The notes under the pieces were generated by a model, which saw only the letters and a program-made list of their open reading frames with translations, had not been told where the DNA came from and searched no databases. Shown piece after piece: positions 20,932 to 26,255 of a stretch of 50,496 nucleotides of DNA. The stretch is from Kordia sp. (GTDB taxonomy: Bacteria > Bacteroidota > Bacteroidia > Flavobacteriales > Flavobacteriaceae). Both the position numbers and the translations under genes were made by a program. Every line of letters starts with the position of its first letter. The stretch's first letter is position 1. The DNA is taken from positions 1 through 50,496 of the forward strand of contig NZ_JAKVBC010000037.1 of assembly GCF_022447245.1 (NCBI RefSeq). Reading direction: 5' to 3'.

Positions 20932-21011
20932 AAATAATTCTATAGTTTGTGTTGATTGCTCTTTTTGATGTGATTATTGCAATAATTTTGAATGTATTAA
21001 AATTTGAGATT

Positions 21012-23321
21012 ATGGAAATACCGATTATACCAGGAAGAGGACTTGTAACAAGTACTGCAACGAATATGCGTTTGGACTTTTTAGAAGCCAATGACATCGA
21101 TACAAATATCATTTCTGAAGCCACATTAGAGTTTCAGGATATTAGAGGAAATATAGAATCTTATATCGGAAGCACTGAAATTCCATTGGGCATTGTTGGT
21201 CCATTACTTTTTAATGATCAAGAAACACAAGAATTAGTGTACTGCCCAGCAGGAACTTTAGAAGGAGCGTTGATTGCAAGCATGAATCGCGGCGCTAAAG
21301 TGATTAGCAAAAGCAAAGGTTTTTCTGCAGAAGTGAAATGGCAAAGAATGACGCGTTCGCCTATGTTTATTTTTGAAAACGTAGAAGAAGCTTCTATTTT
21401 TAAACACTATGTAAAAACTGCATTTTTAAGTATCAAAGAAGCTGCGGAAGCACATACAAATTATGGAAAACTAATAGCAATTAATTGCATTCAAGATATA
21501 AATGTAATACATACAAAGTTTAGCTACGAAACACGCGATGCTTCTGGACAAAATATGACAACAACCTGTACGTGGCATGCAATGCTGTATTTGGTAGAAG
21601 CTTTTACAAATGCAACAGGAGTTAAACCTTTAGATTTTGTGATTGAAGGAAATGGTGCGTGTGATAAAAAAGTATCACAATACAATATAGATTCTGGTAG
21701 AGGAATTCATGTAGTAGCCAAATGCGTGCTTTCAGAAGAAATCATCACGAAAGTACTGCGTACAACTTCCGATAAACTGATGCGTTGTTTTCATCCTTCC
21801 AAAAAGTTAGCAGAAAAAGACGGAATGGTTGGTTATAATATCAATGTTGCTAATGCGATTGCTGCGATTTTTGTGGCAACAGGGCAAGACTTGGCTTCTA
21901 TCCATGAGTCTAGTGTGGGAATATTGCATTTGGAACAAAAAAATGGCGGATTGTATATGCGATTAACTTTACCAAACTTAGTCATAGGAAGTATTGGCGG
22001 CGGAACTTCCTTACCGAGACAAGCACAGGCATTGAAAATAATGGATTGTCATGGAAGCGGAAAAGTGGAGCGATTTGCGAAACTCATCGCAGGTTTTGCG
22101 TTAGGATTAGAGATTTCAACTTATGCCGCAATTGTCAGTGGTGAATTCGCAAAAGCACATGAAAAATTAGGAAGAAACAAACCTGTACAATGGTTATTAC
22201 CTTCAGAACTGACATCAAGCTTTGTACAATCGAGTTTGAATGGTTTTTTTGAAGACAAACAGATTCAGCACATCCAGCCAAAGTCACATGAGTTGTTAGA
22301 GAATGGAATTTTAACAAACATAGCATCAAAGGTTAATAAAAAAATCATAGGTTTTTTGCCATTTCAGATTGATTACATACAACAAAATGGCATCGCCCAA
22401 ACCAAAGATGTACTCATAAAATCAAAACCACTTGATGATGAGGTAATCAAAGGTTTGCATACCATTGCTGCTTCTATAAGTCCAACATTGTCAGATGTGT
22501 TGATAAAATCTAAACGACATTTAGAATACCATAATTGTCATCTCAAAGAAATTGAGTTGTATTCGTATTTACACAAAAGCGGATTTGAAAATATGCCAAA
22601 GTATTTTGGGAAACATGTCAATCCAAAACGTGAAATTTTTATGTTGATTCAAGAATTTTTGTCTGTTTCTGATATGAAAATCATGAACACTGAAAACGAT
22701 CCTAAACAATGGAAACCTGGCGATATTCTTTCTGTCATGAAAACAATTACACAATTTCATCAAGAAGTGAAGTTGGAAGATTTTACACATGTTCAAGAAT
22801 TCCAACCGTGGAAAGTGAGCGAATTATACAAAAAAATGATGCAGATTCTCATCACAGAATGTGCAGAAGTAGATCAAAAAAATGTATTGGAAAAACTACA
22901 TGATGAGATTGATGATCTAAAAAATCAAGAAAAAGAGATTCATGTTGAAAAAACAATTGTGCACAACGATTTTAATCCGAGGAACATTGCAATTAGAAAT
23001 AATGGAATGCCAGTAATTTACGATTGGGAATTAGCAGTTATTGATGTGCCACAACGTGATATTGTAGAGTTTTTGAGTTTTACATTATTGCCAAGTTTCA
23101 AAAAAGATGAACTTTATTTTTATCTAAAAACACATTATCAATTGTATGATGAAGTGGATTGGAATGTATGGATAAAAACTTATAGATATGCATTGAAAGT
23201 GTACATCATCACGCGATTGTCTTTCTATGAAGTTTCAGGAATTTTAATTGCGTACGATTTCTCAAAACGCGTATTGAAAACGGCATTAAAAATGCTCAAA
23301 TATTTGGAAGAAGATGCATAG
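21012..23321 (+). CDS. HMG-CoA reductase fused to an APH/choline-kinase-like domain
   Basis: 769 aa from ATG 21012 (the open frame back to a GTG at 20949 has no homology). Residues 50-400 are an HMG-CoA reductase: STEIPLGIVGPL, GTLEGALIASMNRG (catalytic Glu84), EGNGACDKK (Lys at 219/220), GQDLAS (Asp293), LPNLVIGSIGGGTSLPRQAQ and the C-terminal His383 in AHEKLGRNK. Residues 465-769 are an aminoglycoside-phosphotransferase fold with the catalytic loop HNDFNPRN (651-658) and metal-binding YDWE (Asp671). All key residues of both domains are present. The stop overlaps the next gene's ATG. HMG-CoA reductase makes mevalonate; the kinase substrate is unknown. Confidence 0.85.
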   Translation: MEIPIIPGRGLVTSTATNMRLDFLEANDIDTNIISEATLEFQDIRGNIESYIGSTEIPLGIVGPLLFNDQETQELVYCPAGTLEGALIASMNRGAKVISKSKGFSAEVKWQRMTRSPMFIFENVEEASIFKHYVKTAFLSIKEAAEAHTNYGKLIAINCIQDINVIHTKFSYETRDASGQNMTTTCTWHAMLYLVEAFTNATGVKPLDFVIEGNGACDKKVSQYNIDSGRGIHVVAKCVLSEEIITKVLRTTSDKLMRCFHPSKKLAEKDGMVGYNINVANAIAAIFVATGQDLASIHESSVGILHLEQKNGGLYMRLTLPNLVIGSIGGGTSLPRQAQALKIMDCHGSGKVERFAKLIAGFALGLEISTYAAIVSGEFAKAHEKLGRNKPVQWLLPSELTSSFVQSSLNGFFEDKQIQHIQPKSHELLENGILTNIASKVNKKIIGFLPFQIDYIQQNGIAQTKDVLIKSKPLDDEVIKGLHTIAASISPTLSDVLIKSKRHLEYHNCHLKEIELYSYLHKSGFENMPKYFGKHVNPKREIFMLIQEFLSVSDMKIMNTENDPKQWKPGDILSVMKTITQFHQEVKLEDFTHVQEFQPWKVSELYKKMMQILITECAEVDQKNVLEKLHDEIDDLKNQEKEIHVEKTIVHNDFNPRNIAIRNNGMPVIYDWELAVIDVPQRDIVEFLSFTLLPSFKKDELYFYLKTHYQLYDEVDWNVWIKTYRYALKVYIITRLSFYEVSGILIAYDFSKRVLKTALKMLKYLEEDA

Positions 23322-23829
23322 TTTTTTACAACATATCTATATTGTTTTGCTGCCTTTAATCATTTCAAATGTATTGCACATGTTTGTGATTAAAAAAAAT
23401 ATGTTTTCATGGTTGACAATATCAATTTCACAAAAACTATTTGGCAAAAATAAAACATGGAGAGGCTTTGTGTTTGTTTCCCTTGTGAACTCCATAGTGT
23501 TATACGTACTTGATTTGGCCTGTAATTTTCAATTAGAACATACTTTCTTTATAGGGTTTATGCTTGGTTTCTCATATATGTTGTTTGAGTTACCAAATTC
23601 GTATATGAAACGAAAATTGGGAATTCAAGCTGGACAACAAGCAACATCCAACAGAATACTCTTTGCATTCATTGACAAAATGGATTCTGCTTTTGGAGTC
23701 ATATTGGTGTACTTTTTAATGGGATTTATCTCGTTTCCATATGCGTTGCTACTCTTCATAATCTCCAGTGCAACCCATATTATAATCAGTCAACTTTTAG
23801 TTCAATTTCACATCAAAAAATCATTCTAA
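23314..23829 (+). CDS. CDP-archaeol synthase (CarS)-like integral membrane protein
   Basis: 171 aa with about five membrane helices. Motifs typical of the CarS/CdsA-related CTP-transferase family: FGKNKTWRGF (residues 43-52), ELPNSYMKRKLGIQAGQQ (92-109) and FIDKMDSAFG (119-128), matching the GKTWRG, ExxNSxxKRRxGI and DxxD blocks. Such enzymes activate a membrane lipid phosphate with CTP to give a CDP-lipid. ATG 23314 overlaps the end of the HMG-CoA reductase fusion by 8 bases, and the next gene begins 1 base after the stop. CarS is best known from archaeal ether-lipid synthesis; the substrate here is unknown. Confidence 0.75.
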   Translation: MHSFLQHIYIVLLPLIISNVLHMFVIKKNMFSWLTISISQKLFGKNKTWRGFVFVSLVNSIVLYVLDLACNFQLEHTFFIGFMLGFSYMLFELPNSYMKRKLGIQAGQQATSNRILFAFIDKMDSAFGVILVYFLMGFISFPYALLLFIISSATHIIISQLLVQFHIKKSF

Positions 23830-23830
23830 C

Positions 23831-24400
23831 ATGGAAAAAGAAAATATATACAATGTTCCTAATTTTTTAAGCTTTTACCGATTGCTCACATTTCCCTTAA
23901 TCGTATGGTTTATCTATACAGGAGAAGAAAAGATGTTTGCCATATTTTTATGTGTAAACTTAGTCACAGATATTTTAGATGGTTTGATTGCGAGAAGTTT
24001 CAATCTGCAAACAAAATTTGGCGCAAGATTAGATTCATTAGCTGACAACGGAACGTTCATTGCTGCTTTTATCGGAATTTTCACGTTTAAAATTCATGAC
24101 TTTGCGGAATCTATTTGGATGCTTTGGACATTCATTGGTTTCTTCGTGTTAGGCTTATTGATCTCTTTTATAAAATTCAGGCAGTTTCCAACTCTACATT
24201 TATACACCACAAAAATTGGAGGTTACGTTCAGGGTTTCTTCATTTTTGTATTGTTTGCGTGGAGTTATAATGAATATTTGTTTTATGTAGCAATGATTAT
24301 TGGATACATTTCACACATTGAAGAAATTATAATTCTCATGATTTCAAATGCAATGAAAACAGATGCCAAAGGTTTGTATTGGGTTTTGAAAGAAAGTTAA
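23831..24400 (+). CDS. CDP-alcohol phosphatidyltransferase family protein
   Basis: 189 aa with multiple membrane helices and the complete family signature D-x2-D-G-x2-A-R-x8-G-x3-D-x3-D (DILDGLIAR at 47-55, G64, D68, D72). The family swaps CMP on a CDP-activated alcohol for a second alcohol, for example CDP-diacylglycerol plus inositol, serine or glycerol phosphate. It follows the CarS-like gene after one base, the natural order for making and then using a CDP-lipid. The acceptor alcohol cannot be read from the sequence. Confidence 0.9.
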   Translation: MEKENIYNVPNFLSFYRLLTFPLIVWFIYTGEEKMFAIFLCVNLVTDILDGLIARSFNLQTKFGARLDSLADNGTFIAAFIGIFTFKIHDFAESIWMLWTFIGFFVLGLLISFIKFRQFPTLHLYTTKIGGYVQGFFIFVLFAWSYNEYLFYVAMIIGYISHIEEIIILMISNAMKTDAKGLYWVLKES

Positions 24401-24420
24401 AAGCGTTGATTTTTCCATAA

Positions 24421-24455
24421 CCCAACACCCAACACCCAACATCTAAAATCTAAAC
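24421..24455 (+). repeat. degenerate heptamer repeat (5 units)
   Basis: Three copies of CCCAACA followed by TCTAAAA and TCTAAAC, in strict 7-base register, end one base before the ATG at 24457. The pattern YCYAAMA recurs at 34143-34183, and a related 7-base repeat occurs at 33244-33271. Confidence 0.75.
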
Positions 24456-24456
24456 T

Positions 24457-24873
24457 ATGTCTTTCTTTTTCAAGCAATCCGAAACTACTCGACTGCTAAT
24501 TATTGCTGCTTTAGGTGTGATTTTAGGATTCATTACCTATGAAATTGTATACTATTTGAATCCGTTTTCTCCCAAAGCTACGATTAGTTGGATACTGGCT
24601 TTTATTATTGGAATTGCACGACAACATGCATTACACAGATATTTTACTTTTTCGCATCAAGGTTCATACTTTAAAAGTTTATATCGAGCGTATATTGTAG
24701 ATACTGTCGGACTGCTATTTAGTACTGGACTCAATTGGTTTCTGGCTGAAGTTTTACAGTTGCATCATCGTTTGGTGTGGGGAATTTGTTTGCTATCTTC
24801 AGCTTTGATTAGTTTAGTGTTTCTTAAAAAGTATATCTTTAAGTCTACTTCAAGTATTTCATACATAATATAG
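24457..24873 (+). CDS. GtrA-like small membrane protein
   Basis: 138 aa with four hydrophobic segments and the GtrA-like layout: short polar N-terminus, GVILGFITYEIVYYL, an Arg/His-rich loop RQHALHRYFTFSHQ corresponding to the N-R-x-F-x-F loop of GtrA proteins, then two more helices and a basic C-terminus. GtrA proteins are thought to help move polyprenyl-linked sugars across membranes. It is 56 bases after the CDP-alcohol transferase, separated by the heptamer repeat, and is probably in the same transcription unit. Confidence 0.65.
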   Translation: MSFFFKQSETTRLLIIAALGVILGFITYEIVYYLNPFSPKATISWILAFIIGIARQHALHRYFTFSHQGSYFKSLYRAYIVDTVGLLFSTGLNWFLAEVLQLHHRLVWGICLLSSALISLVFLKKYIFKSTSSISYII

Positions 24874-25139: not shown

Positions 25140-26255
25140 ATGGATTCAAACTTTTTTAACTTTTTATTGATTGCCGGAGCTGTTCAAGGTTTTATCTTCA
25201 ACGGTTTCACATTATTTTCTAAAAAGAAAGTAGATAAGGTGATCATTTTCCTTAATCTTACCGTTTTCTTTTTATCGCTGAACAATCTGCAAGCTTGGCT
25301 TATCGCAAAAGATTTTCGTTTTGATTTCTTCTTTTTGCGGCAATTTTTAGTGTCTTGGTATATGTTTATCATGCCCATGTTTTATATGTTTTTAATTTAT
25401 TATTTAAAAATTGAAGACAAAGTACGTAGCTATGTTAAGTTTGCCATTGTATTATTTGTGATCGAGTTGATTGTGCGTAGTATTTTTATTTTGAATGCTA
25501 CAGAAGCAGATGTTTCTATAATTAAAATGTATACAAGAGCTGAAGAAATGGTCAATGCAGCATTGTCAACTTTTCTTTTCTATAAATGTCTTCAAATTGT
25601 ATTTCAAAAAAGCAAACTCCTTGATTTTATTGTAGATTATGATGATATAAAATGGTTGAAAATCTTTCTAATTTTAGGTGGATTTGTCATTGCTTTTTGG
25701 GTGTTGGCAATTGGGTTAAATACATATTTTGAAGATGCGCGTGCATATTATCCATTACGATTGGCAACTTCTATATTGTTGTATTGGATCGGTTATCAAG
25801 GAACTTCTCGTTATACCTTACTACATGATCGAATTATGTTGCGTGGGAAACTTGCAGCATTGAAGCATGAAACAACAGAAAAGGTAGTGTCGGAAACTGA
25901 AAATAATTTATTAGAAAAGCACCAACAAGAATTCGAAACCATTGCAAGCTATATTTTGTCTGAACAACGTTTCTTGGATTCAAAATTGAGTTTGGAACAA
26001 TTATCCGATGAGCTCGATATTAGTGCGGGGCATTTGTCAAAACTAATCAATAATTACAGTGAATATAACTTTTCAGATTATATCAACTCCTTACGCGTTG
26101 CACAGGCAAAAGCATTGCTAAAAGATGACGATTTTGATAATTATACGATTGTCGCTATTGGATTGGAATGTGGATTTAATTCGCGTTCTACGTTTTATAC
26201 CGCTTTCAAAAAGTTTACAGATCTTACGCCTTCAGAATATCGAAAAACACATTGA
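25140..26255 (+). CDS. membrane-anchored AraC-family transcriptional regulator
   Basis: 371 aa. Residues 1-230 have about seven hydrophobic helices (FLLIAGAVQGFIFNGF, VIIFLNLTVFFLSL, FVIELIVRSIFIL, IFLILGGFVIAFWVLAIG). The C-terminal 110 residues are an AraC-type double helix-turn-helix: LSLEQLSDELDISAGHLSKLIN, FSDYINSLRVAQAKALL, TIVAIGLECGFNSRSTFYTAFKKFTDLTPSEYRK. This architecture is common in Bacteroidota and suggests a membrane sensor that binds DNA directly. Probable target: the neighbouring secreted-protein gene at 26562 or itself. Confidence 0.9.
   Translation: MDSNFFNFLLIAGAVQGFIFNGFTLFSKKKVDKVIIFLNLTVFFLSLNNLQAWLIAKDFRFDFFFLRQFLVSWYMFIMPMFYMFLIYYLKIEDKVRSYVKFAIVLFVIELIVRSIFILNATEADVSIIKMYTRAEEMVNAALSTFLFYKCLQIVFQKSKLLDFIVDYDDIKWLKIFLILGGFVIAFWVLAIGLNTYFEDARAYYPLRLATSILLYWIGYQGTSRYTLLHDRIMLRGKLAALKHETTEKVVSETENNLLEKHQQEFETIASYILSEQRFLDSKLSLEQLSDELDISAGHLSKLINNYSEYNFSDYINSLRVAQAKALLKDDDFDNYTIVAIGLECGFNSRSTFYTAFKKFTDLTPSEYRKTH

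Follow-up and report, generated by a model that had tools for sequence, protein, structure and literature searches.

The Kennedy pathway proceeds through choline kinase, a cytidylyltransferase and a CDP-alcohol transferase (CDP, cytidine diphosphate). The archaeal CDP-archaeol route consists of a UbiA-type digeranylgeranylglyceryl phosphate (DGGGP) synthase, CarS, a CDP-alcohol transferase and archaetidylserine decarboxylase (ASD), and is not known to need an acyl-thioester reductase. Here we analyzed a 50,496-nucleotide stretch of Kordia sp. DNA (assembly GCF_022447245.1, contig NZ_JAKVBC010000037.1; the window), in which four consecutive genes encode a fusion of an HMG-CoA reductase (HMGR)-like domain with an APH-fold kinase (HMG-CoA, 3-hydroxy-3-methylglutaryl-CoA), a CarS-like protein, a CDP-alcohol transferase (CDP-OH) and a GtrA protein. 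We propose, with a probability of about 0.6, that this operon encodes a short route that makes a phospholipid without glycerol phosphate as its starting point. Among the titles and opening lines of abstracts listed in a literature search, outside which lay preprints and most subscription journals, none describes this gene set.

The HMGR-like domain would apply the four-electron reduction of HMGR to a lipid acyl thioester instead of HMG-CoA, yielding a primary lipid alcohol; candidates for its chain are fatty acyls, 3-hydroxyacyls and isoprenoid acids. The fused kinase would phosphorylate this lipid alcohol, and the joining of reductase and kinase in a single protein points to the product of the former as the substrate of the latter. 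CarS would then add cytidine monophosphate (CMP) from cytidine triphosphate (CTP) to form a CDP-lipid in the membrane, the CDP-alcohol transferase would exchange CMP for a second alcohol as the head group, and GtrA, in Kordia only, may move the product or a carrier. The acyl substrate and the product are what we infer, and the order of the steps is read from gene content. A first-pass annotation, made from the sequence alone, had already drawn the succession of kinase, CTP transferase and CDP-alcohol transferase as a short lipid route, and we retain that logic.

Its four genes and their spacing also stand: all are open frames, the overlap of genes 1 and 2 amounts to 8 bases, a single base separates gene 2 from gene 3, and gene 4 begins after a further 56 bases. 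The open frame of gene 1 extends over 20949-23321, with an in-frame ATG at 21012. All Pfam assignments lie above their cut-offs: HMG-CoA_red (E 1.2e-95, residues 18-388; 321 bits against a gathering score of 27), APH (E 1.2e-10, residues 511-705), CarS-like (E 4e-8), CDP-OH_P_transf (E 2.8e-24) and GtrA_DPMS_TM (E 1.3e-9).

Analysis of the reductase domain indicated that its catalytic residues are retained (E49, R93, D218, K219, K220, N281, D293 and H383). Relatives were collected by scanning named genomes with the patterns ASMNRGAK and [GHR]DA[SA]GQNM; the best 80 matches represent 79 distinct loci and are no census. We aligned 80 HMGR-like domains (51 fusions, including that of the window, and 29 without a kinase in frame) with the canonical chains 6hr7 and 8ecg, using the human residue numbers and roles of Glu559, Ser684, Lys691, Asp767 and His866. 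Equivalents of Lys691, Asp767 and His866 are each present in 80 of the 80 domains and that of Glu559 in 79, with one gap. The Ser684 position is acidic throughout, with Glu in 75 domains and Asp in 5, the window contributing Glu212, whereas 6hr7, 8ecg and human 1dq8 have Ser there. The HMGR-like domains also carry DA[SA]GQNM in place of the canonical DAMGMNM; this GQNM signature is enriched by selection because it served as a scan pattern, and the Ser684 position lies in neither pattern. Three further unfused relatives, found through their CDP-OH neighbor and not by the HMGR patterns, all have Glu at this position together with GQNM. The Ser684 loop of canonical enzymes binds the HMG moiety in statin and HMG-CoA structures; an acid there should disfavor HMG-CoA. 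The window domain missed all three NCBIfam HMGR models (251.1 vs 441.8, 187.6 vs 778.35 and 28 vs 259.95 bits). The three canonical chains formed a group of their own in a tree (support 100/100), in which neither the fused nor the unfused set forms a single group and the position of the root is not resolved. Judged by these sequence features, the window domain is probably not an HMG-CoA reductase.

Taken together, the gene content of 29 host genomes, hand-picked from the 79 loci plus the window's genome, indicates that the HMGR-like enzyme is not linked to the mevalonate pathway. IspH, of the methylerythritol phosphate (MEP) pathway, occurs in 18 of them and an HMGR match in all 29; 17 of the 18 IspH-bearing genomes have a single HMGR match and one, G1013, has two. 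Ten of the 11 hosts without IspH have a second or third HMGR match, the class of the second being verified in the window's genome only. HMG-CoA synthase exceeded its cut-off in 6 of the 29 genomes, but its absences are weak because the model also missed the synthase in two Kordia genomes where HMGR is matched a second time. The second HMGR relative of G1013, the IspH-bearing genome of the Moraxellaceae bin with locus L057, is L121, which has Ala at the Ser684 position. Within the window's genome (5.24 Mb), a second HMGR on contig C50 passes the NCBIfam class II (degradative-type) cut-off and adjoins a GYDIA GHMP kinase that is likewise above cut-off, so an ordinary-looking HMGR lies elsewhere in the genome; this is the separate class II enzyme that the first-pass annotation had considered.

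That annotation had the HMGR domain make mevalonate, an assignment that is not supported, given the changed Ser684 equivalent and the occurrence of the domain in IspH genomes without another HMGR match. One of its two versions further used phosphorylated mevalonate as a building block, which is less likely. Stated fully, the fusion would produce mevalonate from HMG-CoA and phosphorylate it, and phosphomevalonate or a relative would become a lipid head group or building block. The single reductase-kinase protein and the retained HMGR catalytic residues are in keeping with such a scheme, and HMG-CoA can also be obtained from leucine breakdown, without HMG-CoA synthase. We nevertheless consider it unlikely: all 80 domains have an acidic residue at the Ser684 position, HMG-CoA synthase is found in only 6 of 29 hosts (weak as an absence), and CarS-like and CdsA-like enzymes, seemingly interchangeable here, act on lipid phosphates (PMC9385802) and not on a small water-soluble phosphate.

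The kinase and CarS of the proposed lipid-alcohol route were examined at the level of motif and fold, and CDP-OH at that of motif. The kinase carries the motifs HND..PRN and YDWE, whose residues (HxD....N and D) are retained in 49-50 of 51 fusions, the remainder being gaps. A PDB sequence search with the kinase domain (E up to 1) gave no useful match; its AlphaFold model (mean predicted local distance difference test score [pLDDT] 94.9) is closest to LicA, choline kinases, APH(9)-Ia and a 25-hydroxy steroid kinase (E values from roughly 1e-7 to 1e-6, template modeling [TM] scores around 0.5), indicating that such folds can take a hydrophobic alcohol. The window CarS, the only CarS-like match in its genome, was modeled with a pLDDT of 95.1, and the one PDB match with a probability of 1.00 is the archaeal CarS 5guf (TM 0.64/0.69, Foldseek E 0.024); the next match has a probability of 0.80 and an E of 0.78. 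Its conserved motifs are ELPNS..KR and DK.DS. Searching PDB sequences with the profile of CarS, at E values up to 0.01, gave no useful match, and the NCBIfam equivalog for CDP-2,3-bis-(O-geranylgeranyl)-sn-glycerol synthase was missed (45 vs 148 bits). Comparison of the CarS and CdsA-like profiles yielded a 93% match over the catalytic motif, and a review (PMC9385802) assigns both to a single superfamily. The CDP-OH motif DxxDGxxAR(x8)GxxxDxxxD is invariant in 10 sequences, and a PDB sequence search with the CDP-OH profile (E up to 1e-5) gave no useful match. The window CDP-OH is weakly similar to ClsA and PgsA, while that of L057 is most like archaetidyl/phosphatidylserine synthases. Neither CarS nor CDP-OH of the window reached an NCBIfam cut-off; the match to ordinary phosphatidyl-lipid enzymes that would have counted against the first-pass annotation was not observed.

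The grouping of fusion, CarS and CDP-OH is more than chance. CarS is present in 11 of 395 Flavobacteriales genomes, and the CDP-OH subtype of the window gives a strong match (E below 1e-70, a cut set after a gap was seen in the list of 22 CDP-OH matches) in 13 of 395. The two coincide in 9 genomes, including the window's, with a hypergeometric P of 7e-14, which treats both 395-genome draws as the same genomes and is overstated because several of the genomes share one genus. A chance neighborhood was rejected on this coincidence across Flavobacteriales genomes. When CarS was searched for across the phylum, 1 of 395 genomes gave a match, that of the window itself. The grouping pointed out in the first-pass annotation is shared for its first three genes: fusion, CarS and CDP-OH occur side by side in further Bacteroidota, and fusion plus CarS occurs in Bdellovibrionota as well (L052 and L056).

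The HMGR-kinase fusion was found in at least 50 other loci with labels of about ten phyla (Bacteroidota, Bdellovibrionota, Myxococcota, Pseudomonadota, Actinomycetota, Bacillota, Thermodesulfobacteriota, Nitrospirota, Spirochaetota and Schekmaniibacteriota). Because many loci are metagenome bins, any one label may be in error, and L079, titled Rhodococcus with the tree label Cyanobacteriota, was left out of the phylum count. Named isolates with the fusion are Kordia jejudonensis, K. periserrulae, Phaeodactylibacter luteus, two Streptomyces and four Paenibacillus; among the matches listed, the closest named relatives of the window fusion are Kordia. The fusion is rare within the family (3 of 299 genomes, the window's own counted). 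At least 29 further loci have the same kind of HMGR without a kinase in the same frame, including L082, whose kinase part is the next, overlapping frame. Open reading frames were called by length and not by a gene finder, and flanks of 5 kb on either side were available for 29 of the 50 fusion loci, many loci being cut short. With this scope, the neighbors of the 50 listed fusion loci are CarS in 31, a phosphoenolpyruvate (PEP)-synthase-like protein (PPDK_N plus PEP-utilizers; PPDK below) in 32, UbiA in 23, CDP-OH in 19, GtrA in 4 and phosphatidylserine decarboxylase (PSD) in 2 (L070 and L073), and in 19 the start of CarS lies no more than about 100 bases from the fusion stop, close or overlapping. 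GtrA, found among these loci only in Kordia and one sister lineage (L032-L035), was rejected as a core member, contrary to its earlier inclusion in the set.

Several cluster types were distinguished besides the Kordia arrangement of the window. Saprospiraceae have the order UbiA-PPDK-fusion-CarS-CDP-OH (L043 and L053), another type includes a methyltransferase, an acyltransferase and a fatty-acid desaturase (e.g., L044 and L056), and Paenibacillus form a type of their own (L074-L076 and L078). Fusion, PPDK, UbiA and CarS are joined by CDP-OH and PSD in L073, by the decarboxylase without a labeled CDP-OH in L070 and by CDP-OH only in L077. The gammaproteobacterial type (L057, L064 and L065) consists of a LolA-like protein, an MMPL exporter, UbiA, fusion, PPDK, GNAT-like, AMP ligase, CDP-OH and CarS. 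The pairing of MMPL-family transporter and LolA-like protein in these loci (L057:2032-7605 in the first) suggests lipid export to the outer membrane.

UbiA also bears on an archaeal-like alternative, the other version in the first-pass annotation, whereby an isoprenoid alcohol or prenyl ether would undergo phosphorylation and CDP activation before receiving its head group. The CarS fold, UbiA in 23 of 50 fused and 15 of 29 unfused listed loci, PSD in two fusion loci and GtrA in Kordia all accord with it. However, cluster-type UbiA was not found in the window's genome by a search without a positive control, and the only PEP-synthase-like match there looks ordinary by eye, so both proteins seem unneeded for a minimal route. 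Furthermore, 32 UbiA relatives conserve only the first Asp motif at the 80% level, with E..E in the second place, and an archaeal route is not known to require an acyl-thioester reductase. The version may apply to relatives with UbiA; overall we regard it as improbable. That ordinary lipid enzymes merely lie side by side, with CDP-OH as the genome's phosphatidylglycerophosphate synthase and the fusion unrelated, is very improbable. In its favor, only two CDP-OH matches were found in the genome (the window gene and a 267-aa PssA-like protein on contig C18), and similarity to ClsA and PgsA is weakly present. Against it, this subtype is strong in only 13 of 395 Flavobacteriales and tracks CarS (in 9 of the 11 genomes that have it) and HMGR-like genes (in 3 of the 4 remaining genomes), and fusion and CarS are closely ordered, or overlap, in 19 of 50 loci.

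Comparison of the fused and unfused loci suggested that parts of the proposed lipid-alcohol route are replaced in some bacteria. CarS occurs in 31 of 50 fused vs 0 of 29 unfused listed loci, showing that the kinase travels with CarS; DUF3419, which is betaine-lipid-synthase-like, occurs in 0 of 50 vs 12 of 29, and so does a family of small proteins designated x233. The unfused type is exemplified by L094 (HMGR-UbiA-PPDK-DUF3419-x233-GNAT-AMP ligase), whose ligase resembles fatty-acid CoA ligases and OleC. DUF3419 and x233 are found together in L087, L089, L090, L091, L093, L094, L097, L098, L102, L104, L105 and L110, which form a second, larger lipid cluster family; many of them also have UbiA, PEP-synthase-like, GNAT-like and AMP-ligase genes. 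Of the four Flavobacteriales genomes with the strong CDP-OH subtype that are not among the 11 with CarS, three (L168, L170 and L171) combine an unfused HMGR-like gene, x233, this CDP-OH and a CdsA-like protein with the CdsA-type C-terminal motif; L169 has the same set with no HMGR in the stretch examined. Two Sphingobacterium loci (L089 and L098) also have a CdsA-like relative after HMGR and CDP-OH. Such sets suggest that bacteria differ in the proteins that occupy the slots of reductase, kinase, CTP transferase and CDP transferase, and gene content suggests that x233 would fill the kinase slot. As a candidate CTP-dependent lipid-alcohol kinase, x233 may resemble phytol/dolichol kinases; no useful Pfam match was obtained for 5 members and no NCBIfam match for one. 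The x233 profile gave a 7% match to the CdsA-like family. The chances are about even that these clusters represent a widespread undescribed pathway, in which an HMGR-derived acyl-thioester reductase supplies a lipid alcohol for direct phosphorylation and CDP activation, giving a phospholipid with a backbone other than glycerol phosphate, and with sister clusters leading to a betaine-type head group (DUF3419) or, by decarboxylation, to an ethanolamine lipid.

Several observations weigh against the proposed route. The Arg590 and Lys692 equivalents are retained in the 80-domain alignment (with one Arg at Lys692), HMG-CoA may still bind despite Glu at the Ser684 position, and one of the G1013 HMGR relatives has Ala there. 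Lys735, a candidate second lost residue, was left unused because its placement in the window depends on the alignment. Eleven of the 50 listed fusion loci, including both Streptomyces, lack CarS, PPDK-like and UbiA genes in the stretch examined, some of them being incomplete. Conversely, CarS occurs without HMGR in the stretch examined, together with UbiA-like and/or PEP-synthase-like genes in L023, L025 and L026, with CDP-OH subtype beside a patatin-like gene in L027-L030, and with none of these partners in L021. For these HMGR-less CarS loci and partnerless fusion loci, the missing parts may lie elsewhere in the genome. The patatin-like gene precedes CarS and CDP-OH in L027:6423-8508, L028:159-2250 and L030:6196-8485, and in L029, where CarS is listed as L017; these loci sit in four Flavobacteriales genomes of 1.6-1.7 Mb, Pfam Patatin was verified for L027, and the gene is perhaps another way to supply lipid.

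The features of the window are listed in Table 1. Downstream of the operon, an AraC-type regulator (Pfam) lies at 25140-26255; three further Kordia loci (L032, L033 and L035) encode close relatives of it, whereas the remaining 47 listed fusion loci gave no match (E up to 1e-5). A divergently transcribed family of about 320-340 aa (L034:6822-7790, L051:1228-2184, L089:6784-7740 and L098:6613-7638) adjoins fused and unfused clusters of different lineages and is perhaps a regulator; its L034 member has no Pfam domain.

Table 1. Features of the reductase-kinase operon in the window
Feature	Position	Strand	Basis
Fusion gene (HMGR-like + APH-fold kinase), 769 aa	21012..23321	+	Pfam; same fusion in other loci
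HMGR-like domain	21063..22175	+	Alignment; Pfam
APH-fold kinase domain, N-lobe + C-lobe	22269..23318	+	Pfam, motifs, AlphaFold model
CarS-like CTP:lipid-phosphate cytidylyltransferase, 171 aa	23314..23829	+	Pfam, structure model
CDP-alcohol phosphatidyltransferase, intact motif, 189 aa	23831..24400	+	Pfam, motif columns
CCCAACA x3 tandem repeat, between genes 3 and 4	24421..24441	+	Sequence
GtrA/DPMS transmembrane-domain protein, 138 aa	24457..24873	+	Pfam; accessory

Among the described systems, the archaeal CDP-archaeol route shares the CarS and CDP-OH steps, and UbiA and PSD genes are also found in some relatives of the window cluster, but here an HMGR-like reductase and an APH kinase feed the pathway instead; geranylgeranylglyceryl phosphate (GGGP) synthase was absent among the labeled neighbors, no genome-wide search being made. 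Class I HMG-CoA reductases (1dq8, 8ecg and 6hr7) belong to the same sequence family and share the catalytic Glu, Lys, Asp and His, whereas the window type has Glu/Asp at Ser684, DA[SA]GQNM and the kinase fusion, falls below the NCBIfam cut-offs and occurs in IspH-bearing hosts. Bacterial CdsA/PssA/PgsA synthesis has CTP activation and CDP-alcohol transfer in common with the operon, but entry here would be through reductase and kinase and not through acylated glycerol phosphate. The Kennedy pathway has the same order of kinase, CTP transfer and CDP-OH, and the fused kinase is close in fold to LicA and choline kinase; unlike in that pathway, the activated half is probably the lipid and not the head group, because the CarS/CdsA-type enzyme is membrane-bound. 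The myxobacterial elb operon and the archaeal-lipid genes of Ca. Cloacimonetes lead to unusual bacterial membrane lipids, as the window operon would. The elb operon differs in the acyl-CoA ligase, fatty acyl reductase (FAR)-like, acyl carrier protein (ACP) and acyltransferase domains of ElbD, and the term HMG-CoA does not occur in the text describing it (PMC9131029); for Ca. Cloacimonetes, GGGP and DGGGP synthases are reported, with no CarS detected (PMC7852524). If the proposed route is true, HMGR-family proteins read as mevalonate enzymes in MEP-pathway bacteria do something else, and a class of membrane lipids awaits discovery in several phyla, with cultured Kordia and Paenibacillus counted among those that have a CarS-bearing cluster. 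It would then constitute a third entry to CDP-lipid synthesis, besides bacterial glycerol-3-phosphate and archaeal glycerol-1-phosphate.

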